This document shows, one piece after another, positions 26,534-58,908 of a stretch of 64,000 nucleotides of DNA. Position numbers and translations under genes: made by a program. The stretch's first letter is position 1; the number at the start of each line of letters is the position of its first letter. Source of the DNA: Scytolyngbya sp. HA4215-MV1 (GTDB lineage Bacteria > Cyanobacteriota > Cyanobacteriia > Leptolyngbyales > Leptolyngbyaceae); NCBI GenBank assembly GCA_019359045.1, contig JAHHIA010000006.1, positions 124,001 through 188,000 on the forward strand. The letters are read 5' to 3'. The notes beneath the pieces were generated by a model, which saw only the letters and a program-made list of their open reading frames with translations, was not told where the DNA came from and made no database searches.

Positions 26534-26703
26534 CATTGATGGTCTGGTACACACAAACAAATAGCAGGGAACCCAGTAGTGCTTGTGTCGCCTGCTACTA
26601 AAAGGGGCGATCGGCAAGCAAAACTACTGAGCCTCTACTTTAACAGGATTCGCGCTGATCGCACCAAAAAGGCAGGTTAACCAGGCAAAGTTGTTGCCTT
26701 GGG

Positions 26704-27714
26704 TTAGTAGCCTTCTTCCTCATATTCAGGAGCTTTAGTCTTTTCGGGAATATTCACTTTGGGAGGCGTATAAGGTGTGTCTTCTTCGTCCGCCCAGGCA
26801 TCTTCTTCAATGTCACTGTATTTATCTTGATACTCTGCCCGCAGAGGCTCTACTTCTCGATACTCTGCTTTAGGGACATCTTCGTAGTCATCGTCGTAAT
26901 CTTCGTAGTCATCATAGCGATCGCGCTTTTCGTAACGAGCAGGGGGGCTGGCTTCGCTCCAGTTATCTTCTTCTTCTTCATAGTAGGTTGGCTCTGGCTG
27001 GCGCTGGCGCAGTTGCCGGGGTTGAGGTCTGGCTTCTTCCCAATTGTCGTCATCCCAGGTTTCTTCAATCACGGGGGTTCGAATCGGAGGCGCAACTGGG
27101 GTTCTTAATCCAGTCCCCAACTGATTTTCGGTGCGGGTGGGGATCACGTAGTCTTCTTCTTCATCCCGCTCCCAGGGGGGTCTACCGATACCGAGCCGTT
27201 CTAAAACGCCGACAGTGATCTGGTTCAGTCGTTCTTCGGCGCCTTCAAACACAATCAGGCGATCGGGACCACTGCTGACTACCTCGTCGATCGGGAGTTC
27301 GTAGGTGCTCACCACCTGATCGGGGATGAGAGGTAGTCCGATCGAGGCAATAATCAGGGCATCTACTTTGCCGCTGTCTACATCAAACTTAAATCCGCGA
27401 ACTTTACCCAGAAGCTCACCAGTTTCGGTGATCACTTCACAATTAATCAGGCTGTTATACGCTTCAACGTCAATATCTTCGATCACATTTTCGTCATCCA
27501 CCAGGATGACATCGCCGATTTGACGAATACTGTTGAGAAACATCGGCTGGGGGGTGCCGTACAGCAAATTAGGGCGCAGGCTCAAAGCGACGACTTCCCG
27601 CCGATCGATATCTACCCATAGTTGACTGACCACACCCAACCGCTTACCTGTTGTACGGGTGATGACCTGGGTGCCCAGAAGATCGGAGCGCTGGCGGATT
27701 TGTTCAGATGTCAT
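26704..27714 (-). CDS. PRC-barrel-domain protein downstream of smc
   Basis: 336 residues. Two PRC-barrel domains (about 8-80: LLGTQVITRTTGKRLGVVSQ; about 90-165: INCEVITETGELLGKVRGF) are followed by a very acidic, low-complexity tail rich in Asp, Glu and Tyr (EEEEDNWSE, DDYEDYDDDYEDV). PRC barrels mediate RNA or protein contacts in RimM, reaction centres and archaeal cell-division proteins. It starts 41 bp after the smc stop on the same strand, so an smc-linked role is likely but unproven. Confidence 0.85.
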   Translation of the reverse strand: MTSEQIRQRSDLLGTQVITRTTGKRLGVVSQLWVDIDRREVVALSLRPNLLYGTPQPMFLNSIRQIGDVILVDDENVIEDIDVEAYNSLINCEVITETGELLGKVRGFKFDVDSGKVDALIIASIGLPLIPDQVVSTYELPIDEVVSSGPDRLIVFEGAEERLNQITVGVLERLGIGRPPWERDEEEDYVIPTRTENQLGTGLRTPVAPPIRTPVIEETWDDDNWEEARPQPRQLRQRQPEPTYYEEEEDNWSEASPPARYEKRDRYDDYEDYDDDYEDVPKAEYREVEPLRAEYQDKYSDIEEDAWADEEDTPYTPPKVNIPEKTKAPEYEEEGY

Positions 27715-27755
27715 TATGTCGCGAATCCTGATGGCGAATCTTGATCAATATCAAA

Positions 27756-30700
27756 TCATACCGAGGCACTTTGGGGCAGTAGGTCAATTCCCAAAACTTG
27801 AGTAAAGGCACCTCTGGCTTGGGTAACCCCGATTGTACGTTCGGAAGACTCAATCATGGGTCGGCGGAGACTGACTACAATAAATTGTGCCTGTTTTGCC
27901 TGTTGTTTGATCATTCTAGCTAATCGCTCTACATTTGCCCCATCCAGGAACATATCGACTTCGTCAAATGCATAAAACGGGGAGGGGCGGTACCGTTGCA
28001 GGGCAAAGATGAAACTCAGGGCGGTGAGGGATTTTTCTCCCCCAGACATGGAAGCCAGACGTTGGACAGGTTTGCCTTTGGGATGGGCCACCAGGTTTAA
28101 GCCGCCGTTAAACGGATCATTGGCATCATCCAGTTGTAGGTGCCCATCGCCATCAGAAAGTTCGGCAAAGATAGCTTGAAAGTTGATGTTGACCGCATCG
28201 AAAGCCTCCTTGAAGGCTTGTTGCCTGAGCGTGGTAAAGTTTTCGATTCGCAGCAGCAGTTCGGTGCGTTCTTCTTCCAGGGTGTGGAGTTTGTCGCTGA
28301 GTTCCTGGAGGCGCGCCTGGGTGCGATCGTACTCTTCCAGTGCCAGCATATTAACGGGTTCCATCGCTTGAAGCCGTTTTTGTAGGGATCGGAGTTCGTG
28401 TTGCAGTGCCACCAGATCCCGTGTCTCGATATCGGGAATTTCCGGCAAGGGATCGGGCAACTCTGCCTGCTGGGTCTGCAATTGCTCCTGAAGCGTCGCC
28501 AGTTCACCCCGTCGAGTTTGTTGAGATTCTTGTAACTTTTGCTGTTGCCACTCCCACTGCTGCTGGCGGGTTTGCCGTTCTCGTAGTTGCCGTTCGGCGC
28601 GATCGCGGGCTTGTTTTTCTGTGCCCAACCGTTGCTCCAGGTCAGCCAGCGCCATTTTGGTTTCGTCAATTTGTGCCTGCAAAGCCGAGAGTTGGCTACT
28701 CAGTGCTGACTGCTGCTGCAACTGTGTCGTTTGCTGGGCACGAAACTCCTGTAAGCGTTGCTGTCCTTGTTCAGCCTTTTCTTGAATGCGCTGTTGCTGG
28801 TTTACCAGGTCTTGCAAGCGTTGCTCTACCGTCCGTACTGCCACTTCTCGTTGACTCAAATCTGCTTCCTGACTCCGCAGGGTTGCCTGGAGCTGCTGCC
28901 ACTCGCTGTGCGTGTGAGATTGCTCTAGTTCTGCCAGCGCCTGCCGCCAGGTTTGCAGTTGGGCTTCTTGACCGGGGATTGCTGTATCAAGTTCAGCCAG
29001 CCTCGTGTGAACGGTTGCAAGCTCTTGAGTGTTTTGTTGCCATTGGGTATTGAGTTGAGCTTGTCCGGTTTGTAGCGTACTCAATTCAGATCGACGTTGC
29101 TCAGATTGAAGTTGAGCTTCGCGGTGCTGTTGTCGCGCTTCGACCATTTCCTGGGATCGCGCTTTCATGGTTTGGCTTGCCTGGACGATCGCGGCACCAC
29201 ACCGCTCCAGAATTTGCTCAATCTCCTGCAATCGTTGCTTGAGTGCCACGACCTCAGTCGATTCGGCTGCTTCCACCGTCCCAAAATGCAAGGTTTGGCG
29301 AGTGTTTTGACTCCCCCCAGTCATCGCGCCGCTGGACTCCAGCAAATCACCATCCAGCGTCACCATGCGGTATTGCCCGATATAACGACGGGCATGATCT
29401 AACCGTTCAAAGACGATCGTATTGCCAAAGACATAAGCGAAGACATCGCGGAAACGCGGCTCAAACTCCACGAGATTGATGGCGTAGTCGATACAGCCCG
29501 TCTGAGATCGCAACGCTCCTGGTAGAGAGAGCAGGGTCTCACCACGTCGAATTTTGTTCAACGGTAAAAAAGTTGCTCGTCCAGCCCGTTTTTGCTTGAG
29601 GAGTTCGATCGCCGCTGCCGCTACCGCATCATCTTCGACGACAAGGTTCCCTAACCTGGCTCCAGCAGAAGTTTCCAGTGCCAACTGATAGCGGGGATCA
29701 ACACGCCCCAATTGTGCCACCAGTCCACATACCCCTGCCAGCCCTAATTCCAGAATAATTTGCGTAGCATGGGTACCCTGAGCTTCTTGAATTGCTTGTG
29801 CCTGAGCTTCCAATTTGTCTAAACGCCGCTGTTTGTCTCGCTGTTCATTCAAGAGTCGAGTCTGGGTTTCTTGCTGGAGTTGCAGTTCACGTTCAGCAGC
29901 AGAAACCGCTTCTGCCAGGGCTTGCACCTGTTGCTGAGAGGTTGTGAACTGGGCTTCGGTGTTGGCTTGTAGAGCTTGCTTCTCGGTGATTTGTTGTTCT
30001 AGCGATTGCAGAGATCGCCCTTGTTCCTGGATTTGCCGTTCCAACTGGCTAGCACGTTCTCGCAAGCGTACCTGCTCAGAGCGCTGGGGATCGAGGATTT
30101 GCAGCAAGGATTCAACCTGATGGCGTAAGGTCGTTTGTTCCTGAACCCAAGCTTCAGCATGGGCAGCAGAAGCACTGGCGGCTTCTCGGCTCTGTTCCAG
30201 GATCTGTTGTGCCTGATCCCGTTGTTGCCGGAGTAATGCCAAATCGCGCGTTTCTAAGGTTTGTTGTTCCTGTGCCAGAGTGGCTAGGGTTTGTCGGTGT
30301 TCCTGGATTTCTTGTTGAGTGCGCGCCAGGTTCGCTGCGACTTCCTGACTGGTGGTTTGCAGTTCTTGTTGCTGGCGCTGAAGCTGGCGCAACTCTGCCT
30401 CACGGCTTGCCAGGGTTGCCTGGAGCGCCAGTTGTTCTTCTTCACCCAGGGCTTTGACATGGGCGTTGAGCAATTCTAGTTCAGCAGTGAGTTGCTGAAT
30501 TTCGCCGGTCAAGTCAGCCATCTGAGTCGCTAGGCTGCTACTCTCCTGCTCACTGGTTGCAATCTGTTGCTGTAACTGACGCACATGGGCAGCGGTTTGC
30601 TGATAGCGAATCACCCCTTCCCATTGCTCTTTGGTTTGCAGTTCTTGTCGCAGTTTTTTGTATTTCTCAGCTTTGAGGCGATCCTGAGCCAACCGATCTC

Positions 30701-31460
30701 GTTGAGCAATCAATTCTTTTTCAACAATGTGATAACGATCTTCCTGATCTTTGACCGTGTCTAGCTTGTCCTTCGCCTGTACAATCTTGCGATCGAAGGA
30801 GGCCACTCCTGCTAGTTCATCAATGATTTCGCGTCGTTCTCGCGAGTTCATCGAGATAATTCGGGTCACATCCCCCTGGAGTACGACGTTATAGCCTTCG
30901 GGATAGACCCGCAAGCGGTTCAGTTCTTCATGTAATTCGGTCAGAGTACAGGGTTGACCGTTGATGTAGTAGTTGGAGGTGTAAGTTCCCTGCTGAGTGA
31001 CTCGGAGCTTACGGGTGACACTCCACTCTAAGGAAGCATGAAGGGAGAAGGGTGAGGAAGCGGTATCACCCTCAGGCAGAGGATCGGGCACAACCGTCAA
31101 TGTGGTATCGACAGCACTAACCGCATTTTTGCCATTCCCATTCCCGTTGCCATTGACCGTTTCTAGCTGTTGTCCACCCCCCATACCGCCCATGCCCACC
31201 AGATCAAATGTGACGGTCACGCTGGCTTCCACAGTAGAACGACTGCGGCTAGTCTGGGTGTGGTTAACCAGATCGGGCAATCGTTCTGCCCGCATCCCTT
31301 TTGACCCCGCCAGCCCCAAACAAAACAGCAGCGCATCAATCAGATTTGATTTACCCGACCCATTGGGTCCAGAAATCACAGTGAACCCCGGCAGCAACGG
31401 AACAGGTGTTGTGCCACCGAAGGACTTGAAATTGGAGAGTTCCAGTCGCTTGATATACAC
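27756..31460 (-). CDS. smc: Chromosome partition protein SMC
   Basis: 1234 residues, the expected size. The N-terminal Walker A is GPNGSGKS (31-38). Two long coiled coils rich in Gln/Glu/Leu flank a hinge (about 555-690; VEDDAVAAAAIELLKQ, FGNTIVFERLD, DGDLLESSGAMTGGS). The C-terminal head has the ABC signature SMSGGEKSLTALSF and Walker B FYAFDEVDMFLDG. It organises and segregates the chromosome with ScpA/ScpB, which are not in the window. A Gly/Asn-repeat insert (NGNGNGNG) lies in the N-terminal head near residue 108. A LexA-like palindrome is about 175 bp upstream. Confidence 0.97.
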   Translation of the reverse strand: MYIKRLELSNFKSFGGTTPVPLLPGFTVISGPNGSGKSNLIDALLFCLGLAGSKGMRAERLPDLVNHTQTSRSRSTVEASVTVTFDLVGMGGMGGGQQLETVNGNGNGNGKNAVSAVDTTLTVVPDPLPEGDTASSPFSLHASLEWSVTRKLRVTQQGTYTSNYYINGQPCTLTELHEELNRLRVYPEGYNVVLQGDVTRIISMNSRERREIIDELAGVASFDRKIVQAKDKLDTVKDQEDRYHIVEKELIAQRDRLAQDRLKAEKYKKLRQELQTKEQWEGVIRYQQTAAHVRQLQQQIATSEQESSSLATQMADLTGEIQQLTAELELLNAHVKALGEEEQLALQATLASREAELRQLQRQQQELQTTSQEVAANLARTQQEIQEHRQTLATLAQEQQTLETRDLALLRQQRDQAQQILEQSREAASASAAHAEAWVQEQTTLRHQVESLLQILDPQRSEQVRLRERASQLERQIQEQGRSLQSLEQQITEKQALQANTEAQFTTSQQQVQALAEAVSAAERELQLQQETQTRLLNEQRDKQRRLDKLEAQAQAIQEAQGTHATQIILELGLAGVCGLVAQLGRVDPRYQLALETSAGARLGNLVVEDDAVAAAAIELLKQKRAGRATFLPLNKIRRGETLLSLPGALRSQTGCIDYAINLVEFEPRFRDVFAYVFGNTIVFERLDHARRYIGQYRMVTLDGDLLESSGAMTGGSQNTRQTLHFGTVEAAESTEVVALKQRLQEIEQILERCGAAIVQASQTMKARSQEMVEARQQHREAQLQSEQRRSELSTLQTGQAQLNTQWQQNTQELATVHTRLAELDTAIPGQEAQLQTWRQALAELEQSHTHSEWQQLQATLRSQEADLSQREVAVRTVEQRLQDLVNQQQRIQEKAEQGQQRLQEFRAQQTTQLQQQSALSSQLSALQAQIDETKMALADLEQRLGTEKQARDRAERQLRERQTRQQQWEWQQQKLQESQQTRRGELATLQEQLQTQQAELPDPLPEIPDIETRDLVALQHELRSLQKRLQAMEPVNMLALEEYDRTQARLQELSDKLHTLEEERTELLLRIENFTTLRQQAFKEAFDAVNINFQAIFAELSDGDGHLQLDDANDPFNGGLNLVAHPKGKPVQRLASMSGGEKSLTALSFIFALQRYRPSPFYAFDEVDMFLDGANVERLARMIKQQAKQAQFIVVSLRRPMIESSERTIGVTQARGAFTQVLGIDLLPQSASV

Positions 31461-31940
31461 AGGCTGTCCAAGCCTTTGTCAGGGAGAAACGTCAAAGAGG
31501 GGTTGGGAGCACACAAAGGATCGCCGTCGATCGACAAGCCTTGAGCAAAAATTGCACAAAGTAGAAGTTTAGTTTAGCCGCTAATTCACTTTATGCACTG
31601 AATTAACCGTATCTTCTATTGATAACACGTTTAGAACAAATGTTCTATACAAGAGAATGCTTTTCTTCTTTTCAGCTCTCTTCTCGCTACCTATTGCCCC
31701 ATGCGCTGGGCTTTGGGTGCGTCTGGGGTGGATAAGCTAATGCCGGAACGAGATTTTATTACGCCAACCCACGCTCCGCACCTCCATGAAATATCGGTAA
31801 ATTGATCGATGTTTAGTAGTTTTCGGCTTCCAAGTGCTTGCTTTCACCGCTTATTTATGACATTCTCGTATCTAGCAATTAATACGGAATCCCTACCGAT
31901 TTACCGTAAATTAGATGATAGACAAGGATATCCAGTACTT
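31461..31940. other. Divergent intergenic region upstream of smc and sbpA
   Basis: About 480 bp, with no supported gene. It contains the palindrome at 31632-31647 described separately and presumably both promoters. In-frame codons upstream of sbpA from 31809 lack a signal-peptide pattern, so the ATG at 31941 is used. Confidence 0.5.
31632..31647. promoter_or_regulatory. LexA-box-like palindrome
   Basis: TAGAACAAATGTTCTA is a perfect 7-2-7 inverted repeat. Its core GAACNNNNGTTC matches the Gram-positive LexA/DinR consensus form; the usual cyanobacterial form is closer to AGTACNNNNGTWC. It lies between the divergent smc and sbpA genes. Binding is not shown. Confidence 0.4.
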
Positions 31941-33104
31941 ATGAGACAAGCTCCATCAGAAGAACCCCCTTCGTTGCTGCGATCGGCAAAACAAGGAATT
32001 CTGGCAGTTTTGCTTCAAGTGAGCAGTCCGCTACAAAAAGCTTCGACTCGGACTTCGGCGGTGTTGCTAGCGGTTGGCATCGGCTTCAGTTCGACAATGC
32101 CCATCTCTGCTGCTGGGGTTCCACGGTACGCCGAGTCAGGCCAAACCAAAGCTCAATTGCTCAGCCAGAATTCCAAGAAAGTTGAGATTCTGTTGGTTTC
32201 CTACGCAGTTACGAAGGCAGCCTACGACAAAATCATTCCGTTGTTTGTTGCCAAGTGGAAGGCAGAAACTGGGCAGGATGTGGTGATTAATGCCAGCTAT
32301 GGCGGATCGGGTTCGCAGACACGAGCTATTTTGGATGGTTTGGAAGCTGATGTCTCGACCCTGGCATTGGCATTGGATACCAAAAAGTTGCAAAAAGCAG
32401 GATTGATTGATCCCGGTTGGGAAAAAGAAGTGCCCAATGAGGGGATCGTGACAAAATCGGTCGTGGCGTTGGTCACCCGTCCAGGCAATCCCAAGAAAAT
32501 TCGGACCTGGACTGATCTGGCAAAACCTGGGGTGCAGGTGATTACTGCCAATCCCAAAACTTCGGGGGGGGCCCGTTGGAACTTTCTGGGCTTATGGGGA
32601 TCTGTTATTTACACCGGTGGCACTGAAGCCCAAGCCAAGGACTATGTGACGCAAATCTACAAGAACGTCCCTGTTTTGGGGAAAGATGCGCGGGAATCTA
32701 GCGATATCTTTTTCAAGAAGGGGCAGGGAGACGTGCTCCTGAACTACGAGAACGAAGTGATTTTGGAAGGTCTGCAAGGTGGAGGGAAGTCCTTCTATGT
32801 AGTTCCCCAAACCAATATTTCGATCGACAATCCTGTTGCAGTGGTTGACAAAAACGTAGACAAGCATGGCACCCGCAAAGTGGCAGAAGCCTTTGCCCAA
32901 TTTTTGTTCACTCCAGAAGCCCAGCGTGAATATGCCAAAGTTGGCTTCCGTCCAGTCACACCTGCGGTTGTGAAAGAGGTGGATAAGAAATTTCCCAAGG
33001 TGAGCAAGCTCTATACCGTCAAGGATTTTGGTGGTTGGGATACTATCCAGAAGAAATTTTTTGATGATGGCTCGATTTTCGACCAAATTTATACGGCTCG
33101 CTAG
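31941..33104 (+). CDS. sbpA: Periplasmic sulfate-binding protein of an ABC transporter
   Basis: 387 residues from ATG 31941 (AAGGATA upstream). A long basic N-region and hydrophobic stretch (TSAVLLAVGIGFSSTMPISAAG) form the signal peptide. The mature part follows the Sbp/CysP pattern: VEILLVSYAVTKAAYDKIIPLF, INASYGGSGSQTRAILDGLEADV, KTSGGARWNFLGLWG and LLNYENEVIL. It delivers sulfate (or thiosulfate) to CysTWA. No permease or ATPase gene is adjacent, so it is an orphan binding protein here. A hairpin follows the stop codon. Confidence 0.92.
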   Translation: MRQAPSEEPPSLLRSAKQGILAVLLQVSSPLQKASTRTSAVLLAVGIGFSSTMPISAAGVPRYAESGQTKAQLLSQNSKKVEILLVSYAVTKAAYDKIIPLFVAKWKAETGQDVVINASYGGSGSQTRAILDGLEADVSTLALALDTKKLQKAGLIDPGWEKEVPNEGIVTKSVVALVTRPGNPKKIRTWTDLAKPGVQVITANPKTSGGARWNFLGLWGSVIYTGGTEAQAKDYVTQIYKNVPVLGKDARESSDIFFKKGQGDVLLNYENEVILEGLQGGGKSFYVVPQTNISIDNPVAVVDKNVDKHGTRKVAEAFAQFLFTPEAQREYAKVGFRPVTPAVVKEVDKKFPKVSKLYTVKDFGGWDTIQKKFFDDGSIFDQIYTAR

Positions 33105-33110
33105 AGTCTG

Positions 33111-33153
33111 GTGAGCATGTTTTGCAGGCTGAAAATCCTCAAAATATGCTCAC
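33111..33153 (+). terminator. Hairpin after sbpA
   Basis: A 14-bp stem (GTGAGCATGTTTTG / CAAAATATGCTCAC, one G-T pair) with a 15-base loop begins six bases after the sbpA stop. There is no T-run, so termination is likely but not certain. Confidence 0.5.
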
Positions 33154-33183
33154 AATTCGGTTGGGTTACCTGCCTGTTCTCAG

Positions 33184-33354
33184 AAGATGCTTCAAAAGTC
33201 CTTTCGTAAGCTGCAACAGACAAGTTCCCCCTTAAAAAGGGGACTTTGAGGCTGCTTCCTCCCTTTTTTCTAGCGCAGCGGCGCATTAGTGCGGAGGCGA
33301 GAGGGGGTTCTGCGTGCTCAATATCATTGCTAAGACCTTTGCAAACAACCTCTT
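33184..33354 (-). mobile_element. Repeat family D, copy 1
   Basis: About 170 bp, inverted relative to copies at 42901-43075 and 52503-52709. Shared blocks are GCTGCGCTAGAAAAAAG, GTCCCCTTTTTAAGGGGG-like palindromes and the CGAAAGGACTTTT end. Boundaries are approximate. It lies directly upstream of the TonB-like gene, ending about 10 bp before its ATG. Confidence 0.65.
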
Positions 33355-33363
33355 ACAGGCTGA

Positions 33364-34491
33364 ATGCCCATCGATCCGTTGAACTGCTCCATCGCTCAAT
33401 TGTCCTCCCCTGATCCTGTGTCTAAGCCAGTAGAAGCTGAAGAAACTGAAAGTCTGCCAACCACAATTTTGGCAAACCCTGACTCTGTGCCTGAGCCAGC
33501 AGAGGTGGATTGGCTGCATTCTCCCAAACCCAAGCGGCGATTCACTCAACAATTAATCTGGCTGATGCTGGTAGTTTCGATCGGGCTACATGGGGTGTTG
33601 TTACTGGCACCCCTGCCATCGGAGAAAAAGCCTGCCACTCAAAAACCTGAAGAGAAAAGTGTTCGCATCACCCAGTTGCCAACATTAGTGAAGCCGATCG
33701 CGGTCAAAAAAATCCCAAAACCGACACTGCCTAAGCCAGTCGTGAAACTGACTCAGCCTAAGTCGGTCATTCCGCCTGTGAAGCAACCCAAATCTGAGGA
33801 TGCTGCTCAGGATCAGGGAAAAGCAGCAGCGAATGCCAATCCCTGGAAAGATTTTCCTCAGTATCCTGGTGCCCAATCAGGGTGCTATCACTTGCAGTCT
33901 TGCTCTCAAACCAGTGATGCTCTGGCTCCAGTGGCAACCTTTTTTGAAAAGGAGCTGGCAACAAAAAAATATGAGGCAAAGTTAACCCTGACGGAGCCAA
34001 ATCGCAAAGTCTATCAGGTATCCCGAAACAATCTCGTCCAGTTTCTCAGCATTTTGACTGATCCTGAAAAAGGGACTGTGTATGTGTTGGCACCCAATGC
34101 GTTGACTTTGGCAGATTTGGCAAAAGCCAAGGAAGTGCCACCGGAAATCGCTCAGGTATTTGAGGGTCTAGATGCCGAGGAAACCAGCCGCGAGAATTTT
34201 GCCCAGCCGGAAGCATTTTATACCGCCGATCAGTTGCGTTCCGACATCATCGATATCCGGTTGATTCCAAACCCTTCACCTGATATCAATTTTGCAACGT
34301 TTTTTGACGCTTATCTGAGTACCAATTTGCGGAACAGCGAATTTGATGACTATTCAGAGACAGGGCAAAGTTATGGGGGCGGACCTATCTATCTTGCGAA
34401 GAAAGATAAGCTGTCCCTTTATATCAACCCAGTGCCGACTCAAGATGGTGCTGGAACGATCGTCGTGATTTGGAAGAATGAACCCAAGTAA
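33364..34491 (+). CDS. TonB-like membrane protein of an ExbB/ExbD operon (no canonical TonB C-terminus)
   Basis: 375 residues. After about 60 cytoplasmic residues there is one membrane helix (QLIWLMLVVSIGLHGVLLLAPL) and then a Pro/Lys-rich periplasm-spanning segment (KIPKPTLPKPVVKLTQPKSVIPPVKQPK), as in TonB. The C-terminal 220 residues do not show the usual TonB signature (YP..A...G..G.V); they contain WKDFPQYPGAQSGCYHLQSCSQTSD and a folded region instead. Neighbouring exbB and exbD support a role as the energy-coupling partner. The receptor or cargo is unknown. Confidence 0.75.
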   Translation: MPIDPLNCSIAQLSSPDPVSKPVEAEETESLPTTILANPDSVPEPAEVDWLHSPKPKRRFTQQLIWLMLVVSIGLHGVLLLAPLPSEKKPATQKPEEKSVRITQLPTLVKPIAVKKIPKPTLPKPVVKLTQPKSVIPPVKQPKSEDAAQDQGKAAANANPWKDFPQYPGAQSGCYHLQSCSQTSDALAPVATFFEKELATKKYEAKLTLTEPNRKVYQVSRNNLVQFLSILTDPEKGTVYVLAPNALTLADLAKAKEVPPEIAQVFEGLDAEETSRENFAQPEAFYTADQLRSDIIDIRLIPNPSPDINFATFFDAYLSTNLRNSEFDDYSETGQSYGGGPIYLAKKDKLSLYINPVPTQDGAGTIVVIWKNEPK

Positions 34492-34507
34492 GCGTTGTTA
34501 GATTTTG

Positions 34508-34648
34508 CTGCTTCTGATGGATTTTGTGTTGGAGCTGTCAAACCCTTAAGGGGCGTGGCATTTGGATAACGATTTTCAGGCTAAGCAAGGATTTCGCACC
34601 AAATGCCGCCCCCCTACGCCGGATCAACACAAATTGAGTTAGAACCGG
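34508..34648 (+). mobile_element. Palindromic MITE family C, copy 1
   Basis: 141 bp, ends CTGCTTCT and AGAACCGG. The two halves are inverted repeats (TTTTGTGTTG...GGGGCGTGGCATTTGG / CCAAATGCCGCCCCCC...CAACACAAA), so the RNA would fold into one long hairpin. Flanks GATTTTG and GATTTCG are a possible imperfect duplication. It lies between the TonB-like gene and exbB. Confidence 0.8.
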
Positions 34649-34717
34649 GATTTCGCCAAATCTAAACTATTGCTGCTCCTTGTCCAACAGTTTCATCTAT
34701 CGCCCTGGAAAGTGCCC

Positions 34718-35422
34718 ATGTCAAATCTCTATACCATCATCGCGAAAGGTGGCCCGACGATGATCCCGATCGTAGGTCTGTCGATTATGACCCTTGCACG
34801 AGCCTTGGAGCGGGGATGGTTCTGGTATCAATTGCTCAGTCAAGAAGACAAGATTGTGCAGGATGTGCTGGAAGCGGCTCACTTCAGTTTGGAAGATGCC
34901 GCTGCGATCGCCAAACAAAACAGCCATCTGCCGATCGGTCGGTTCTTATTGGCTCCCCTAAGGCTGCGAAATCCCACCCCTGAAACATTTCGTCTGGCAC
35001 TGGAAACAGCTGCCGACAAAGAATTCATTGAAATGCAAAAGGGCGACAAACTCTTTGAAAGTGTGGTTGGCATTGCTCCGCTTCTGGGGTTGTTGGGCAC
35101 CGTCACTGGTTTGATTTTGACCTTCAGTAACCTGAATATTGGTGGCGGTGGGGCTTCATCGGGTACTGAAAAAGCTGCAGCCGGGATTGGTGAAGCCCTC
35201 ACCACCACAGCGGGCGGTATGGTGGCTGCCATCATTGCATTATCCATTTTCCGAATTTTGGTTTCGTTTCAATCCAAGCAAATGGATTACTTCTCGGTGG
35301 TTGGCGGTGAACTGGAACTTATCTATCGCCAAATCTGGTACGAACCCATTTTTCACCGTGCTCCGCAATATTTTCCCAATCCTGACCATGCCTCCCCACT
35401 GACTCGGACTGAGTATCAGTAG
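34718..35422 (+). CDS. exbB: ExbB/TolQ/MotA-family proton-channel protein
   Basis: 234 residues from ATG 34718 (MSNLYTIIAKGGPTM). Three membrane segments: IPIVGLSIMTLARALE near the start, FESVVGIAPLLGLLGTVTGLILTF in the middle and GEALTTTAGGMVAAIIALSIFRI later. LLGLLGTVTG and GEALTTTAGG are the family signatures of the proton path. With ExbD it energises the TonB-like protein using the proton gradient. The gene is separated from both neighbours by family C repeats. Confidence 0.92.
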   Translation: MSNLYTIIAKGGPTMIPIVGLSIMTLARALERGWFWYQLLSQEDKIVQDVLEAAHFSLEDAAAIAKQNSHLPIGRFLLAPLRLRNPTPETFRLALETAADKEFIEMQKGDKLFESVVGIAPLLGLLGTVTGLILTFSNLNIGGGGASSGTEKAAAGIGEALTTTAGGMVAAIIALSIFRILVSFQSKQMDYFSVVGGELELIYRQIWYEPIFHRAPQYFPNPDHASPLTRTEYQ

Positions 35423-35473
35423 GGACTGCAGCGCCACAGAAAGTTGGCTGAAATCTGATCACACTTCATTCAT

Positions 35474-35612
35474 CTGCTTCTGATGGATTCTGTGTTAGAG
35501 CTGCCAAACCCTGAAGGGGTGTGGCTTGGTCAACGATTTTCTGGCTAAGCAGGGGGGGCGCACCAAATGCTGCTCCCCTACGCCGGATCAACACAAATTG
35601 AGTGAGAACCAG
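35474..35612 (+). mobile_element. Palindromic MITE family C, copy 2
   Basis: 139 bp, ends CTGCTTCT and AGAACCAG, flanked by a perfect 8-bp duplication TCATTCAT (35466-35473 and 35613-35620). The same internal palindrome as copy 1, about 1 kb away; it lies between exbB and exbD. Confidence 0.88.
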
Positions 35613-35683
35613 TCATTCATCATTCAAACCTGACTTTCTGATCTCCCGGTTTCTCATTGCTCCCTTAATCCTGTATCGCCTCC

Positions 35684-36103
35684 ATGAGTATTCGGTCTCG
35701 ACAAAAAGCGCGTCACTCCGGTATGCCAGATGTCAATCTGGTGCCCATGATGGATGTGATTATGACCATCCTGACGTTCTTCATCATTGTTTCGATGACC
35801 CTTTCCAATCAGAAGGCGTTGAATGTGCCTTTACCCCGGACGGATCAGGGGGGTACGGAGATTAAGCAGCCTGACCCACTGATTGTGGGACTCAATGTGC
35901 AAGGACAGATTTTGCTGGATGGGAAGCCTGCAACGGATTCGGACTTGGCGCAGAAAATGCAGGCTTACCTCACCCGCAATGTGAATGGGGCAGTGATTCT
36001 CAAGGCCGATCGCAAGGTGCCTTACGAACAGGTCGCAAAACTGTTAAGCACAATGCAAGCCTTGGGAGGCGAACGGGTTTCTTTAGCAATTACTGCCAAT
36101 TGA
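35684..36103 (+). CDS. exbD: ExbD/TolR-family biopolymer transport protein
   Basis: 139 residues. The family pattern is complete: a short cytoplasmic start, then PDVNLVPMMDVIMTILTFFIIVS, the single membrane helix with the conserved Asp that carries protons, and a periplasmic domain ending in LKADRKVPYEQVAKLLSTMQALG. It partners ExbB. The stop lies 14 bp before the start of the next lipoprotein gene, indicating one transcript. Confidence 0.93.
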   Translation: MSIRSRQKARHSGMPDVNLVPMMDVIMTILTFFIIVSMTLSNQKALNVPLPRTDQGGTEIKQPDPLIVGLNVQGQILLDGKPATDSDLAQKMQAYLTRNVNGAVILKADRKVPYEQVAKLLSTMQALGGERVSLAITAN

Positions 36104-36117
36104 GACCTGAGGTTGAG

Positions 36118-36804
36118 ATGTTGAGACGTACGCAAAGATATTTGAGCATTTTGGCTGCGATCGGGACGATCTCGCTTTCCGCTTGCACGAAAACACTGGA
36201 TGTGAGCCAGATTGAAACAGCCATTCAGGCAGATTTGAGCAAACGAGGGCGATTGTCGATCCAGTCGATTACCTGTCCTACAGATATCAAGTCGGAGCCA
36301 GGAAAGTCGTTTGAGTGCGCTGGGTTGCTGGAACCGGATGGCGGCTTTTTTGTGGTTGTGACCCAAGAAAACGACCAGGGTAAGGTGAATTGGCAAGTTC
36401 CCAATTCCTGGCGGTTATTGAACCTCTCTCAGCTAGAAGCAGAGATTGCACAAAAGCTAAAGCCTGACGCAAAAAGCACCCTAAAAATTGATTGTGGTGG
36501 GATATATCGCCCGACGCAACCGGGAGACAGTTTTGAGTGCAAACTTTTGCGTTCTTCACTCACCCCGCCAATCCAGAAATTTCGCAAAGCTCAGCCCAAC
36601 CCAACCCCTTCACCCTCTGCCACGATCGTTGTTCGTGTGGAGCCGGAAGGGAAAATCACCTGGCAAGAAGTGCGAATGGTTGCAGCAGCCCCCAGTAAAG
36701 TAATAGCCTCTCCTGCGGCTGCAAACAATGCTCAGTCTACGACAGAACTGTCTCCAGACGTGGGCGTTAAAGACGATACAGGGTGGACTCGGCTTGCAGA
36801 TTAG
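36118..36804 (+). CDS. Lipoprotein with two DUF4333-like repeats
   Basis: 228 residues from ATG 36118 (GAGGTTGAG upstream). The signal ends in a lipobox, ISLSAC, so the mature N-terminus is a lipidated Cys. Two similar units follow: VSQIETAIQADL ... CPTDIKSEPGKSFECAG ... GKVNWQV and LSQLEAEIAQKL ... CGGIYRPTQPGDSFECK ... GKITWQEV, each with a Cys pair that may form a disulfide. The close spacing to exbD suggests it works with the ExbBD/TonB-like complex, but its function is unknown. Confidence 0.75.
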   Translation: MLRRTQRYLSILAAIGTISLSACTKTLDVSQIETAIQADLSKRGRLSIQSITCPTDIKSEPGKSFECAGLLEPDGGFFVVVTQENDQGKVNWQVPNSWRLLNLSQLEAEIAQKLKPDAKSTLKIDCGGIYRPTQPGDSFECKLLRSSLTPPIQKFRKAQPNPTPSPSATIVVRVEPEGKITWQEVRMVAAAPSKVIASPAAANNAQSTTELSPDVGVKDDTGWTRLAD

Positions 36805-37087
36805 GTAGGGACATGTTTGGCGAGTGCGGTTGCCGGGTGACACACTGCAACTCTAAAGCAACTTCAAACAAATTTGAGTCAGGTGGGTTTCCATCCAACC
36901 AGCCTCGGCAAACACTTTCTAAGCCAAGGTTTTTACCGATTCCAGGGTCGTCAAGAGTATTTTGTATTCTTGGCGACGAATCCTGAAGCGTGTTTAGATA
37001 ATGCTTCGTTTTAATCAAACTGCCCACCTGTGGAATGCAGGGAGTGAATGCCTGCTCACACTTTTCTTAAATATCATTTGATTTGTC

Positions 37088-38116
37088 ATGACTCAATCTA
37101 ATTTGCAACAAGATAATCTTGCGAAATCGCCCCTGTTTTTAGTGGCTCCTTTTTTCTTTCTAGGCACCTCGATGGTGGTGATGAAAGCGGTCATTCCGAA
37201 CACGACGCCGTTGTTTCTTGCCGGATTTCGTTTAGTTCCGGCGGGTATCATTGTTTTGCTTTTAACGATCGCGTTGAAACTGCCCCAACCAAAAACCTGG
37301 AAAGCCTGGTTCTGGATTGCCCTTTTTTCTTTAATTGATGGTGCCATGTTCCAGGGCTTTTTGACGGAAGGGCTGGTGAGCACAGGTGCGGGGCTAGGAG
37401 CTGTGTTGATTGATGCCCAACCGTTGGTGGTAGCGGTGCTGTGTCGGTTACTGTTTGGCGATGTGATTGGCTTGTGGGGATGGTTGGGGTTGGCGATCGG
37501 CTTAATTGGCATTAGTCTGTGTGGCTTACCAGCAGAATGGATTTTGAGCAGTCTGCACGGCAATTTCAGCTTTTTGCACAGCAGTACGCCTTTAAGTTGG
37601 GACGGACTTTTGCACAGCGGCGAATTGCTGATGTTGCTGGCAGCTCTTTCCATGTCCTTTGGCACGATTATCATTCGCTATGTCAAACAACATGTGGATG
37701 CAATCGTGGCAACAGGTTGGCACATGTTGTTGGGCGGTATTCCTCTCTTTTTGCTGTCAGGATTGTGGGAATCGCAGCAATGGAGCCGACTGGATCTCTC
37801 TGGTTGGGGTGGGCTCGGGTATGCCACTCTATTTGGTACGGCATTGACTTATGGCATCTTTTTCTATCTGGCGTCGGTGGGCAACTTGACCAGTGTCAGT
37901 GCGCTGATTTTTCTAACCCCCGTATTTGCCATGCTGTTCAGCTATTTCTTTTTGGCAGAAGTCCTCACGCCTTTGCAATGGATCGGGGTGGTTTTGACCC
38001 TGATTAGTGTGGTACTGGTGATTCAGCGAGAAAAGATTGCCAGTGGCATCTCCGCACTCTCCACTCGGTTAAGTGCGGCGACTCGTGCAGCAGAGGTGAC
38101 GCCTAAGGTGGATTAG
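37088..38116 (+). CDS. DMT-superfamily permease with two EamA domains
   Basis: 342 residues with about ten membrane helices arranged as two EamA repeats (about 17-150 and 180-320). Motifs include PFFFLGTSMVVMKAVIP, GFRLVPAGIIVLL, GLVSTGAGLGAVLIDAQPLVVAVLCRLLFGD and ALIFLTPVFAMLFSYFFLAEVLTPLQWIG. The family exports metabolites, such as amino acids or related compounds; the substrate is unknown. The ATG at 37088 fits the first helix. Confidence 0.87.
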   Translation: MTQSNLQQDNLAKSPLFLVAPFFFLGTSMVVMKAVIPNTTPLFLAGFRLVPAGIIVLLLTIALKLPQPKTWKAWFWIALFSLIDGAMFQGFLTEGLVSTGAGLGAVLIDAQPLVVAVLCRLLFGDVIGLWGWLGLAIGLIGISLCGLPAEWILSSLHGNFSFLHSSTPLSWDGLLHSGELLMLLAALSMSFGTIIIRYVKQHVDAIVATGWHMLLGGIPLFLLSGLWESQQWSRLDLSGWGGLGYATLFGTALTYGIFFYLASVGNLTSVSALIFLTPVFAMLFSYFFLAEVLTPLQWIGVVLTLISVVLVIQREKIASGISALSTRLSAATRAAEVTPKVD

Positions 38117-38164
38117 TGACGGTTTATCCACCAGCAGTTAAGGATGTCATCAAATGGTCTGATC

Positions 38165-38245
38165 GGCGTTGCTTAACCACGGGATGAAAATGATGCTGAA
38201 TGATTTGAAACTTCGGTCCAAATTATCCTGCTTTTCAGCAACGCC
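38165..38245 (+). mobile_element. MITE-like repeat family A, copy 3
   Basis: 81 bp, ends GGCGTTGCT and AGCAACGCC. A 10-bp direct repeat TGGTCTGATC lies immediately left (38155-38164) and, after two extra bases, right (38248-38257), consistent with insertion. It is 3' of the DMT permease gene. Confidence 0.85.
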
Positions 38246-38418
38246 AGTGGTCTGATCCCCTTACCCCCCCCTGAAAAAAGGGGACTTTGAGTTCTAAAGC
38301 TCTTTTTTCGGAACTTGGGGGAATCTCAAAAAACTGAGCCTGAAGTCCGAATTTATTGATACACAGTAGAAAAAAAAGCAGCATGAGGCTTTTCGCTGCT
38401 CTATCTCCCCCCGTAGCG

Positions 38419-39078
38419 CTATTGTTTTCGTCGGAAAAGGACAGAGAGATTGTTGGCTGGCATCTCGATGGTTTCGACCAGGGCGAAGTGATGACGCTGG
38501 GCAACTGCAAGCACAGCTTCTAGATCGCGCACTCCCCATTCGGAGTTTTGTGCCTGCAGGCTGGCGTCGAAGGCGGCATTGCTGGGGGCGGTGTGTTGTC
38601 CCTCGACCCGAAAGGGTCCGTAGAGATACAAGATGCCATCCGCTGGAAGAAGCCGTTGGGCACCTGCTAGCAAGCCCAGACAAGCTGTCCAGGGGGCGAT
38701 GTGAATCATGTTGATGTTGACGATCGCCCGAATAGGATGATGTTGCAAGTCAGTTTGCAACGGTTCGGGTAAAGGAGTCTGTTCCACTGTCCATAGAGGA
38801 TCGCGAACATCCAGGGCGATCGGGGCGTACAGATTAGCCGCGGGCAGATGTGCTCGCCAGGCGGCGATGCTAGCACGGGCGATCGGGTTGGGGTCAGAGG
38901 GTAGCCAGTGTCGGGGGGCTAAGCGGGGTGCAAAAAAGACGGCATGTTCTCCGGTGCCGCTGGAGATTTCCAGGACGGTATCGGTGGCTGGCAACACGCG
39001 CTGGAGGACATCCAGAATCGGTTCGCGGTTGCGTTGGGTGGCGAGAGCATACTGGCGATCGTCGGAGAAGTTAAGCAT
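38419..39078 (-). CDS. DUF938 SAM-dependent methyltransferase-like protein
   Basis: 219 residues. Class I methyltransferase fold: SAM loop VLEISSGTGEHAVFFA, acidic strand end LPSDPNPIA, then ALDVRDPLW, and the DUF938 signatures INMIHIAPWTACLGLLAGAQRLLP and LYLYGPFRVEGQHTAPSNAAFDASL. The substrate is not known. It stands alone between repeat-containing sequence and a divergent region. Confidence 0.88.
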   Translation of the reverse strand: MLNFSDDRQYALATQRNREPILDVLQRVLPATDTVLEISSGTGEHAVFFAPRLAPRHWLPSDPNPIARASIAAWRAHLPAANLYAPIALDVRDPLWTVEQTPLPEPLQTDLQHHPIRAIVNINMIHIAPWTACLGLLAGAQRLLPADGILYLYGPFRVEGQHTAPSNAAFDASLQAQNSEWGVRDLEAVLAVAQRHHFALVETIEMPANNLSVLFRRKQ

Positions 39079-39297
39079 CAGTGATTAAGAGGGGGTGATA
39101 CTGAATCTCGTCCTAAGTCTCGTTGCTGAAGGCTTGGGTCTGTCATCTTAACCTTACGCTTTGTCCACTCTGGCAATGGCGATATCTCATCAGCTAAAAC
39201 TCACGCATTGCAGTTATTTTAGCAATCATCCTTTAGAAAACTAGCACCTTTGTCCGAGAGAAAAAGGTGAGCATGAGGACGATCGGCACTGCCACGC

Positions 39298-41646
39298 TTA
39301 GGAATAGGCAGAAAGGAACAACGAAGCATCTGGCAACTCAACAATCGATTGCACATCTGATCGCTGTTGCTTCAACCAACCTCTTGAGCGCTGGATAGAA
39401 TGCCCATCCCCATCCCGCTGCAAAATGGGTAACTCAATGACAAATTCACTACCTTCGCCCAACACCGAATGACACGACAACTGACCACCGTGTCGTTCCA
39501 CTACAATCTGATAACTAATGGATAAGCCCAACCCTGTCCCTTTGCCAATCATCTTAGTTGTAAAAAATAAATCAAACAGCTTTGCCTTAATTTGTTCATT
39601 GATTCCCACACCATTATCTGCGATACGAATGATGACTTGCTCACGTCCCTCAGTTTCAGTCTGAATGCGAATACACCCCGGATAAGCAAATCTTTCCTGA
39701 GGACTCAGTTGCTGGTTTCGCTCCTCTACTGCATCGATCGCATTCGTCAGAATATTCATGAATACCTGATTCAGTTGTCCAGGGTAGCAATCGATCGCCG
39801 GGAGTTCTCCGTACTCCTTTATAATCTGAATTTCAGGTTGATCGGGTTTTGCCTTCAGGCGGTTGTGCAAAATCATTAAGGTGCTGTCTAACCCCTCATG
39901 CAGATTTGCCGTCTTAAACTCCGCCTCATCCAATCGTGCAAAGATGCGGAGTGATTGGACAATTGCTTGAATGCGCTCTGCTCCAAATTTCATAGACAAG
40001 AACAACTTGGGCAAATCAAGGGTAAGAAAGTTTAAATCGATCGCATCAATTTCTGCTTGAATTTTGGCATTGGGATGGGGATAGACTTCCTGATAAAGCT
40101 GAATGAGCTTCAGCAAATCTGTGGCATATTCATTGGCATAATTGATATTGCCATAAATAAAACTAATGGGATTGTTAATTTCATGGGCAACCCCGGCAAC
40201 GGTTTGCCCCAAACTTGACATTTTTTCGCTTTGGATCAAGTGAAACTGTGCTCTTTGCAGTTCACTCAGCGCTTGTTGCAATTGCTGGGTCTGGGTTCTC
40301 AGTTGCATTTCTGATTGTTGCAATGCCAATTCTGCTTGCTTGCGATCGCGGGCTTCTACTGCTAATGCCACCAAATCTGCGATCGACCGGGCAAAACTTT
40401 CATCTTCAGGATTCCACTGTCGAGCTATGCCTACCTGTTCAATGCACAACACCCCCGCTGCTACCCCAGCCAACCGAATGGGAACATCCAACATTGAGCA
40501 AATATTCAGCGGCATTAGATAGGATTCTGAAAGCTCATAGGTTCTGGGATCAGTCAGTGCATCATTGGCAACAATGGGTTGATCCTCAGTGTCGATCGCG
40601 CCAAAATACGCTGGATAATCTGTGACCACCAGTGTGCTTCCTTCAGAATGCTGCATGGGTGTCGATTCAAACAAATTCAGGCATTGTAGAAGCGTTTTCT
40701 GGTCGTTATAAAACCAAACGCTCACCCGTTCAACCGAAAGCGCCCGTGCCGTTGCTGAAGTAATCACCTGCAAAGCGATCGAGAAATTTCCATCGCTGAT
40801 GGCTCGGTGTTTGGTCACTTGATTCAGCACCATCGTGTGACTGCGCAACTGATCCGCCCGATTTTGTAGCGTGGCTTCTGCGTGCTGGTGTTGCCGAAAA
40901 ACAGTTTCAAATGTTTCCGATAAAAAACGAATTTCATTATCTGGCAAAGCCATGGGTGACACAAAGCGGTTGACCGTTTGACTTGCTACCAATGCCTGAT
41001 TTAATCGGCGTAGGGGCACTAGCACTATTGCCCGCATCAAAAGCCACATCAACGTCAAAATGGCGATCGCCCCAATTGCCAGCGTTGAACTGGATGACAA
41101 TAAAATCTGTCGGGCATCTTCATGAATTTGTTCAATATCCAGCACCACCACCGCTAAGCCATACTGGTTCGATTGGCTGGAAAGCATATTGCGAAGTGGC
41201 ATAATACTCACCAACACCCGCTTGCCATGAAGCAACATTTTGGTTTGCACCTCCACCCCACCAGTCGCCGCTTGATAAAGTACAGAAGCTAATTCGGGAT
41301 GTGCAACTTCATAAGGTAAATGCCTTTTATCGGAGCTAGAGTGAGCCAGATTTTTGCCGTCTGTGCCGATAATCAAAACTTCCAAAATTGCAGGCAACGT
41401 GGCATAGTTTTGCACCATTTGATTCAGCACTTCACGATCGTCTAGCGCAATTACACCTTCCATGGCAAATTCGAGCGATCGCGTAATCGCACCTGCATGT
41501 TCTAATTCTTCCTTTTCTAAATCCGATTGAACTAAACGATAGTTAATTCCTAAAGTCAACAAACCTGCGAAAACTAACGATAGCCCAAATCCCGTTAAAA
41601 GCTGCTTTGATAAGCTGTGCTGAGGAAAAAGGCGCTTCTTATTCAT
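39298..41646 (-). CDS. Membrane sensor histidine kinase with GAF domain
   Basis: 782 residues from ATG 41646 (MNKKRLFPQ). TM1 (LLTGFGLSLVFAGLLTLGI), a periplasmic sensor of about 150 residues, TM2 (STLAIGAIAILTLMWLLMRAI) and a HAMP-like linker are followed by a GAF domain (about 295-450, without bilin-type Cys motif), a coiled coil, HisKA with GVAHEINNPISFIYGN and HATPase_c (NILTNAID, DNGVGI, GKGTGLGLS). The last 40 residues are outside the kinase fold. No partner regulator is adjacent. It is paralogous in its kinase half to 23371-25527. Confidence 0.9.
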   Translation of the reverse strand: MNKKRLFPQHSLSKQLLTGFGLSLVFAGLLTLGINYRLVQSDLEKEELEHAGAITRSLEFAMEGVIALDDREVLNQMVQNYATLPAILEVLIIGTDGKNLAHSSSDKRHLPYEVAHPELASVLYQAATGGVEVQTKMLLHGKRVLVSIMPLRNMLSSQSNQYGLAVVVLDIEQIHEDARQILLSSSSTLAIGAIAILTLMWLLMRAIVLVPLRRLNQALVASQTVNRFVSPMALPDNEIRFLSETFETVFRQHQHAEATLQNRADQLRSHTMVLNQVTKHRAISDGNFSIALQVITSATARALSVERVSVWFYNDQKTLLQCLNLFESTPMQHSEGSTLVVTDYPAYFGAIDTEDQPIVANDALTDPRTYELSESYLMPLNICSMLDVPIRLAGVAAGVLCIEQVGIARQWNPEDESFARSIADLVALAVEARDRKQAELALQQSEMQLRTQTQQLQQALSELQRAQFHLIQSEKMSSLGQTVAGVAHEINNPISFIYGNINYANEYATDLLKLIQLYQEVYPHPNAKIQAEIDAIDLNFLTLDLPKLFLSMKFGAERIQAIVQSLRIFARLDEAEFKTANLHEGLDSTLMILHNRLKAKPDQPEIQIIKEYGELPAIDCYPGQLNQVFMNILTNAIDAVEERNQQLSPQERFAYPGCIRIQTETEGREQVIIRIADNGVGINEQIKAKLFDLFFTTKMIGKGTGLGLSISYQIVVERHGGQLSCHSVLGEGSEFVIELPILQRDGDGHSIQRSRGWLKQQRSDVQSIVELPDASLFLSAYS

Positions 41647-42695: not shown

Positions 42696-43296
42696 TTAAG
42701 GCTGGGTAGTAGCCCCGCCTGAAGAGATGAAGCAATCTGTGTTTGAACGCTTGCATATCGAGGGGGCCAAGTAAATCGAGAATTCATCCAAGATTCAGAA
42801 CTGAATCAAGTGGATGGCGACTGATGAGACTTTTGAATTCAAGCGTCTTGGATTCAGGTTTCTAAATGTCCAAATTTCTATTCAATCTAGTGAACTCTGA
42901 GCGGTTGTTTGAAAAGGTGTTAGCTGTGATGTTGAGCACTCAGAGATCCCCCCTGGCCCTCGCGCAATGCGCCGCTGCGCTAGAAAAAAGAGGGGATCAG
43001 CCTCAAAGCCTTCCTTTTTTCTGGCGGAGCAGAGCATCAGTACGGGAATTTTAGAGGGATCGTGTCGGTTGCTACAAATCTGCCTACCATTCTGACTTCT
43101 AGCTCCTGACTTCTGACTCCCTCAGAATGGCTGCCTAACTTACTCCTAAAGCACTCGTGTTCTGTCAAGTTTTTGGAGGATGGGTTGAAAACCCGTCAAA
43201 ACTCACCGATCGCTGCTTCTCTATCTGTCGATTGAACGTTGACAGGTAACGAGTCTACAAAGCTAAAAGTTTCGGAATCGTCCTAAAGGAAAAGAT
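42696..43296. other. Intergenic region carrying repeat family D
   Basis: 600 bp. It holds repeat D copy 2 and otherwise no gene. The 62-codon frame starting at 42866 lies in the repeat and is not called. Confidence 0.5.
42901..43075 (+). mobile_element. Repeat family D, copy 2
   Basis: About 175 bp. It shares GTTTGAAAAGGTG, GCACTCAGAGATCCCCC and GCGCTAGAAAAAAG with copies 1 and 3; its right part has diverged and lacks the AAAGGACTTTT end. Boundaries are approximate. Confidence 0.6.
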
Positions 43297-54416: not shown

Positions 54417-54576
54417 AGGGTTAGGAGTTGGAGAAGTTCAATTTTCACTTAACCAACCCTGAATCATGAACTGATCATTTTTTCCTTGTCAGCCTATCGT
54501 ATCAAAATCGTACAGAGATTGCTTAAAAGACTGGAAGATTCGGCCCTGGATTGGGCTATTGGCGTTAGAGAGATTT

Positions 54577-54717
54577 CTGCTTCTGATGGATTTTGTGTTG
54601 GAGCTGTCAAACCTTGTAGGGGCGTGGCATTTGGACAATGCTTTTCAAGCTAAGCAAGAATTTTGTACCAAATGCCGCACCCCTGCGCTGGATCAACACA
54701 AGTTGAGTTAGAACCAG
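54577..54717 (+). mobile_element. Palindromic MITE family C, copy 3
   Basis: 141 bp with the same ends and internal palindrome as the copies at 34.5 and 35.5 kb. Its flanks AGAGATTT (54569-54576) and GGAGATTT (54718-54725) differ at one of eight bases. It abuts the stop codon of the SWIM-domain gene. Confidence 0.85.
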
Positions 54718-54724
54718 GGAGATT

Positions 54725-55582
54725 TTAACCATTTGTGGTCATTGCCGTCTGCACTGCGTACAGGCTGACTTCTTGATAAATGGCTTTTAAGGACTCCATC
54801 GGCGAAGCTGGAGCCGGCGAGTTGGGCGGAGTTGGATTCGCGACACCTGAGTTAAGCGGAATAGGACCCAATACATCCAGCACCGTTTCACTGCGAGGGG
54901 AAGGGGCAATGACCACGAGCGAGGGTTCCAATTGTTCGTTGTAATGCCAAAACTGCTCAATTTGCAAGGGGTTGGCTCTGGGAGCCATTGCCTGGACTAC
55001 AATTTCATCTTCTGGGGTTGCGGTGCTTTCGTGACGGGTTGCCGAATTGAGGCTCCGCATTTGGCGCAGAGATTCGATGATTTGTTCTTTCGTGCGTCCT
55101 CGCAGTTGGAATAGTACGAAGGGATCTTCACTGAAGCGATCGCCTAACACATAGTAGACCGCACCAATGTGCTTACAAGGATTTGCCGGATCGGGACAAC
55201 TGCATCGACTGCGAATATCAAATTTAGTAAACGGAAACAGGCTCAATCCGTTTTCTGTGAATACCTTTTCGATGTTTTGGGGCATCTCTCCTGCTAACAG
55301 CTTGGCAGAGAAGATTGCCTGTTGTGACATCGATTCAATCACATAGCCCCACTGCTCATCGGTGAAGGGTTCTAAAGACAACGAGACTTTATAGGGTTCC
55401 GGGGCGGTTCCTTGAACACGGGCAGAGACTTTGTGTCCGTTGTAATCAATGTTGAGCACGTTGCCCTGGCGGGCATAGTTGCGGGCACGCTCCAGTCGCC
55501 TGCGCCAGCCAAAAGATTCTAGTACATCGATCCAGCGTTGTGCCCACCATTCGCGGTTGGGTTGGGTGTACGTATCGGTCAT
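54725..55582 (-). CDS. SWIM zinc-finger domain protein
   Basis: 285 residues. The SWIM motif CxC...CxH is at about 134-148 (CSCPDPANPCKHIGAVYY). The N-terminal part (WWAQRWIDVLESFGWRRRLERARNYARQGNVLNID) is the usual lead-in of bacterial SWIM proteins that accompany SNF2 helicases. It probably binds DNA or protein as an accessory to the helicase at 46736-50218. The stop codon directly adjoins repeat C copy 3. Confidence 0.88.
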   Translation of the reverse strand: MTDTYTQPNREWWAQRWIDVLESFGWRRRLERARNYARQGNVLNIDYNGHKVSARVQGTAPEPYKVSLSLEPFTDEQWGYVIESMSQQAIFSAKLLAGEMPQNIEKVFTENGLSLFPFTKFDIRSRCSCPDPANPCKHIGAVYYVLGDRFSEDPFVLFQLRGRTKEQIIESLRQMRSLNSATRHESTATPEDEIVVQAMAPRANPLQIEQFWHYNEQLEPSLVVIAPSPRSETVLDVLGPIPLNSGVANPTPPNSPAPASPMESLKAIYQEVSLYAVQTAMTTNG

Positions 55583-57630: not shown

Positions 57631-57695
57631 GACCGGTGCGATGGTAGGTTGTTCTGAGTGTACTGGTGAGATTTGGACGATCGCCCATCGTTGTT

Positions 57696-57920: not shown

Positions 57921-57923
57921 CAG

Positions 57924-58178: not shown

Positions 58179-58278
58179 TACCGTTTTTGACTTGATGAAT
58201 GCAGTAATTTTATGCTGCCAATGGTGATCGATTCTAGTAAACCCCCTGAGACTCGTACAACTTTTTATGTCAGGCTGT

Positions 58279-58831: not shown

Positions 58832-58908
58832 TATTCACTCCACTGCGATCGCTCCTCATTATAACAAGCCCGATTGCACCAGAACCCCGATCGCCACTAT
58901 CAACCGCC

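Follow-up and report, generated by a model that had tools for sequence, protein, structure and literature searches.

The palindromic elements that occupy both intergenic gaps of a TonB-like/exbB/exbD operon in Scytolyngbya sp. HA4215-MV1 raise the question of whether they are regulatory structures of the operon mRNA or mobile DNA that has settled between the genes. The DNA analysed here, referred to below as the window, is a whole stretch of 64 kb (C10:124001-188000) from a genome of 6.62 Mb; coordinates given without a contig are positions in the window.

The operon and a dispersed family of repeats

The TonB-like ORF, exbB and exbD are all located on the plus strand, with one copy of the element in each of the two gaps (Table 1). 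ExbB and ExbD are securely identified by Pfam. The TonB-like ORF had no Pfam match at E ≤ 0.001 in the profile search; by eye, it has a single hydrophobic segment near the N-terminus and a stretch rich in Pro and Lys. The gap from its stop (34491) to the ATG of exbB (34718) is 226 bp, and that from the stop of exbB (35422) to the ATG of exbD (35684) is 261 bp; minus the element and its duplication, they would be about 77 and 114 bp. The operon is presumably still co-transcribed through both copies.

Table 1. Genes of the operon, element copies and their flanking sequences (positions in the window)
Feature	Position	Strand	Basis
TonB-like ORF, 375 aa	33364..34491	+	ORF; homologues beside ExbB in some relatives
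Sequence left of copy 1, AGATTTTG, possible remnant of a target duplication	34500..34507	.	2/8 in register
MITE copy 1, 141 bp, subfamily I, TonB-like ORF/exbB gap	34508..34648	+	ends, alignment
exbB, 234 aa counted from ATG	34718..35422	+	PF01618, 1.9e-28
Target duplication TCATTCAT, left of copy 2	35466..35473	.	8/8
MITE copy 2, 139 bp, subfamily I, exbB/exbD gap	35474..35612	+	ends, alignment, fold
Target duplication TCATTCAT, right of copy 2	35613..35620	.	8/8
exbD, 139 aa	35684..36103	+	PF02472, 4.5e-28
Target duplication AGAGATTT, left of copy 3	54569..54576	.	7/8
MITE copy 3, 141 bp, subfamily I, convergent gap	54577..54717	+	ends, alignment
Target duplication GGAGATTT, right of copy 3	54718..54725	.	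7/8

The initial annotation had described copies in both operon gaps and a third one at 54577-54717. All three are present, align in register and have the same (plus) orientation, and their ends could be placed exactly (6 end matches vs 0.00 expected from 100 shuffles). The 8-bp duplications reported for copy 2 (perfect) and copy 3 (near-perfect) are also there. The flanks of copy 1 agree at only 2/8 positions in register; by eye, AGATTTTG/GGATTTCG match at 6/7 positions if a 1-nt slip is allowed and look like a decayed target duplication. Copy 2 has diverged furthest among the 21 aligned copies of its subfamily and lies 10.8% from the consensus (15 substitutions, 2 gaps).

Genome-wide, the element gave at least 40 BLAST matches, a spread absent from the initial annotation. 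Its terminal inverted repeats are about 24 bp long and paired (CTGmTTCTnA...TTTGTGTTG), the whole unit beginning with CTG and ending with CAG. At up to three mismatches, 38 left and 29 right ends were revealed in the genome, and the reversed-pattern control gave 0. Thirty copies with both ends present were tested for target duplications; this set leaves out ends without a partner, truncated copies and the composite at C15:205132-205438. Duplications of 8 bp matching at 7/8 or better were found at 16/30 copies vs 2/870 control pairings, in which the left and right flanks were taken from different copies. The other 14 copies, copy 1 included, have no duplication at this level.

In 28 of the 30 copies the ends span 135-161 bp, which is too short for a transposase, and the elements therefore have no coding capacity. 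The remaining two measure 257 and 414 bp; their ends are intact and their 8-bp duplications perfect, which indicates that the mobile unit is defined by its ends. Alignment of the copies, from which three longer elements (161, 257 and 414 bp) were omitted, revealed two subfamilies: subfamily I with 21 copies (mean pairwise identity 89.4%) and subfamily II with 6 copies (89.5%). The subfamilies differ from each other by about 32%, and individual copies have diverged by 2-11% from their own consensus. It should be mentioned that three variants of 257-414 bp (C15:352276-352689, C14:207927-208183 and C15:205132-205438) are composite, with the left half duplicated and additional GC-rich palindromes inside; two of them carry perfect 8-bp duplications, and in the third both ends are of the left type.

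Inverted ends, a duplication of fixed length, a non-coding interior and multiple dispersed copies all characterize the family as MITEs, and the same-ended autonomous partner of such elements was found in relatives only. The proposal that the palindromes of both gaps are insertions was thus correct: they are transposed elements, with inverted ends and 8-bp duplications.

All 30 tested copies lie outside predicted genes. With genes predicted by our own codon-usage script, 19 copies were assigned to co-directional, 6 to divergent and 5 to convergent gaps; the background junctions, whose loci include the copies, numbered 112, 25 and 24, respectively, and no enrichment in co-directional gaps was seen (19/30 copies vs 112/161 junctions). 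The copies are clustered: five neighbour distances are under 5 kb vs 0.65 expected (P 0.0003, with the threshold picked post hoc), which would not be expected from uniform random insertion. Four copies belonging to both subfamilies lie within 11 kb at C23:174705-185600, which suggests local hopping or a permissive region. Such processes fit the clustering better than a special tie to the operon.

Several other repeats were noticed in the window. A second palindromic repeat of 81 bp (GGyGTTGCT...AGCAACGCC) is located at 12816-12896, 38165-38245 and 3051-3131; its genomic copies number at least 40, with identities of 90-100% among the matches listed, and it is probably another MITE. A third dispersed repeat (42900-42959, 52501-52560 and 33274-33353) has at least 40 genome matches. 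One of its copies ends 10 bp before the start of the TonB-like ORF, so that repeats of several families lie around the operon. Further repeats of the window are D1 (four 239-nt units), D4 and D3 (59822-60555, 57679-59054, 23462-39637).

A same-ended insertion sequence in related cyanobacteria

When 84,980 species genomes were scanned with the end pattern, 32 stretches were returned, two of them cyanobacterial and both from MAGs. In Thermosynechococcus sp. WC_1 there is an overlap between the end and the stop of a transposase open frame of 240 aa, and in Acaryochloris sp. CRU_2_0 remnants of the same transposase, recognized by eye, adjoin the end. The other 30 stretches, single matches in other phyla, were taken as chance.

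With the 240-aa frame as a query, homologues were found in 9/58 relatives, and the full 428-aa transposase from Kovacikia minuta CCNUW1 matched 43/291 genomes of the class. In total, 15 distinct IS copies with matching ends 1.34-1.50 kb apart were revealed, while reversed loci gave 0 end pairs; two loci with weak end pairs (L093 and L148, with 7 and 5 mismatches in total and duplications of 3/8 and 0/8) were excluded from this count. A perfect 8-bp duplication surrounds 7 of the 14 IS copies with both flanks readable, and none of 182 mismatched flank pairs reached 7/8 or better. The partner IS is about 1.35 kb long, encodes a transposase of about 428 aa and produces 8-bp duplications. In two plasmid records of Leptolyngbya boryana this transposase is annotated as 'hypothetical protein'. 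By inspection rather than alignment, no sequence shared by the MITE and the IS was noticed past the ends.

The transposase was not found in the present genome either with the full-length query, even at E ≤ 10, or with the fragment query, both of which match relatives. Because the same-ended IS is present in relatives and was not found here, the family looks orphaned, and its copies in this genome are best read, from these searches, as an orphan family with no resident transposase. Since no autonomous element was found here, the link between MITE and IS rests on the ends and the duplication length in other species, from which we infer that the transposase of this IS moved these copies. Both elements occur together in K. 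minuta CCNUW1, which belongs to the same GTDB-style family, Leptolyngbyaceae, as the genome studied: it contains the IS (7 matches) and one full-length MITE, 80% identical, whose flanks agree at 6/8 positions by eye. In this way an orphan MITE family is linked with one particular cyanobacterial IS family that is unannotated.

Two other candidates were rejected. The ends and the duplication length of 8 bp had suggested ISL3 as the partner, but the genome has 0 matches to PF01610, while 4/14 control genomes match. A solo right end at C16:447716 was considered as the end of an autonomous copy; it has no left partner, and the neighbouring ORFs are not transposases, resembling by eye a histidine kinase and a diguanylate cyclase.

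The reading frame of the partner transposase is often split in two, 12 of the 16 distinct junction sequences being out of frame. All 12 (L081, L082, L084, L086, L136, L138, L139, L140, L144, L145, L146 and L149) contain a C6-C7 run 18-20 nt before the DEKH codons; six would need a +1 shift and six a -1 shift. The four in-frame junctions have either 5 C at the same place (L090) or no such run (L132, L134 and L143). In K. minuta, one copy (L084, G005:C2) has 6 C and is split, and another (L090, G005:C1) has 5 C and a single 428-aa frame. One study (PMC4066793) lists C_CCC_CCC with the -1 motifs that work most efficiently in E. coli, and another (PMC1088944) deals with IS genes that use slippage on runs of A or T. 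Judged from these junctions, a programmed frameshift or slippage at the C-run is possible. The presence of +1 and -1 members at the same tract would fit homopolymer slippage by RNA polymerase, ribosome or replication; the split may also be due simply to decay of the homopolymer through indels. A broader proposal, to which we would give rather less than even odds, is that an uncatalogued DDD-type IS distantly related to IS256/Mutator drove the MITEs in trans through a two-frame transposase, with slippage at the C6-C7 run serving as an on/off control of both. The split at the C-run makes this part of the scheme testable.

Hairpin retention and the operon

According to the initial annotation, each copy folds into one long hairpin. 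This is true of copies 1 and 3, whose minimum free energy (MFE) folds are largely the family hairpin, holding 47/48 and 38/49, respectively, of the family pairs that are still possible. It does not apply to copy 2, where the MFE fold holds 15/43 such pairs and the family fold reaches -28.6 kcal/mol vs -52.2 kcal/mol for the MFE fold. The z-scores of the plus-strand folds were -3.4 (34513-34653), -2.3 and -6.1 for copies 1, 2 and 3, with 4/200 shuffles equally good for copy 2; those of the minus-strand folds were -2.1, -3.0 and -4.7.

Whether base pairs are retained more often than expected can be asked by placing the same substitutions at random. In the 21 copies of subfamily I, 988 base pairs are kept vs 984.9 ± 5.0 expected (P 0.31), and in the 6 copies of subfamily II, 286 vs 287.7 ± 2.6 (P 0.79). 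Neither subfamily, over these 21 and 6 aligned copies, shows excess retention of hairpin pairs. Between the subfamilies the stems covary, 3/25 predicted pairs being changed on both sides, which indicates that the hairpins of the founders were preserved during the mobile phase of the family, perhaps for transposition. Comparing pair retention with random substitution in this way shows, from sequences alone, whether a mobile hairpin is decaying or an RNA element is being retained.

We consider it highly probable (about 0.9) that the copies are non-autonomous MITEs moved by the transposase of the same-ended cyanobacterial IS, and that those in the operon are independent of each other and decaying with no detectable selection on the hairpin. 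A transposase supplied in trans would recognize the inverted ends of about 24 bp and insert the element, duplicating 8 bp of the target. The enzyme would most likely come from the unclassified IS with the same ends and 8-bp duplications that is present in related genomes. Copies 1 and 2 would represent separate insertions into intergenic spacers, which broke no gene, and would have decayed since then, the hairpin being under no detectable selection. What appeared to be a regulatory hairpin thereby becomes a dated insertion.

The insertions may nevertheless have affected the operon passively, by parting genes that were once coupled, so that ExbB and ExbD would be initiated independently and the hairpin would have no role. 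In the best-scoring relative (G011) the TonB-like/exbB and exbB/exbD gaps are 5 and 10 bp vs 226 and 261 bp here. The insertions add to the distance between genes that almost abut in G011, and any translational coupling between them would therefore be weakened in the present genome. However, the gaps would still measure about 77 and 114 bp with the element and duplication removed, and any coupling may have been lost before the insertions. Moreover, element-free relatives also have wide gaps (e.g., 143 and 73 bp, 152 and 86 bp; up to several hundred bp), and wide gaps are therefore not special to this genome. On balance, we regard a passive effect of this kind as unlikely.

Still less probable, in our view, is that the hairpins have been co-opted in the operon mRNA, where RNase III cleavage or the stalling of 3' exonucleases at them would fix the TonB:ExbB:ExbD ratio. 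The idea draws on the long stable stems of copies 1 and 3 (z -3.4 and -6.1), on the sense orientation of the copies in both operon gaps and on a precedent, the RNase III cleavage of a Correia MITE in the gonococcal mtrCDE transcript, as described in a review (PMC10969869). It is opposed by the lack of excess pair retention in both subfamilies and by the loss of the family fold in copy 2. Further points against it are that the copies in co-directional gaps show no orientation bias (12 sense vs 7 antisense) and that among 30 randomly placed copies some pair would fall within 1 kb with a probability of 0.12.

No terminator-like site (a GC-rich stem followed by a T-run) and no plus-strand promoter-like site was found in either operon gap, and the region 33000-38500 had no Rfam match at E ≤ 1. 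The element ends occur at none of 29 other ExbB loci examined, drawn from 56 other genomes with an ExbB match; a TonB-like homologue lies upstream of ExbB at three of these loci (L103, L104 and L108), with a partial match at a fourth (L127). The initial annotation had suggested that the structures set the ratio of the proteins through termination, RNA cleavage or stability. Beyond the hairpins themselves this suggestion found no support in the DNA, the pairs being lost at the random rate and a terminator being absent. The operon shows no sign of depending on the repeats as far as these comparisons reach; incidental effects, such as lost translational coupling or RNase III processing, are possible.

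Comparison with known systems

It is scarcely credible that the mobile unit is the inner stem GTAGGGGC, as in GTAG-tagged REP/RAYT-type palindromes served by a tyrosine transposase: the consensus inner stem does start with GTAGGGGC, and PMC3733652 reports GTAG repeats from filamentous cyanobacteria, but the unit that moved is the whole of about 141 bp with outer CTG...CAG inverted ends and 8-bp duplications, and GTAG is internal to it rather than the terminal tag of a palindrome of 20-40 bp, the size given for REPs.

The partner IS resembles the IS256 family and the Mutator superfamily in its weak profile matches (NCBIfam IS256, 3.8e-6; Pfam MULE, 0.054) and in its 8-bp duplications; IS256 produces duplications of 8-9 bp. 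It differs in scoring 26.1 bits, far under the IS256 cut-off of 150 bits, in having its reading frame split at the C-run and, in an alignment examined by eye, in the Asp of RTSNxxD at the position of the IS256 Glu. It can be described as an unclassified cyanobacterial IS distantly related to IS256/Mutator.

In the portions of the open-licence PMC literature consulted, neither the ends nor the partner IS described here is named. Bacterial MITEs such as Correia, RUP, Nezha and others share with the present family a short non-coding sequence, inverted ends, target duplications, an intergenic location and a strong stem-loop. The Chunjie MITE of Geobacter uraniireducens is similar in lying inside an operon, whose structure is undisturbed according to a title cited in PMC10969869; it is longer, 178-235 bp vs about 141 bp here. 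The repeats in the TonB-like/exbB/exbD operon are a known kind of element and belong to a new family.
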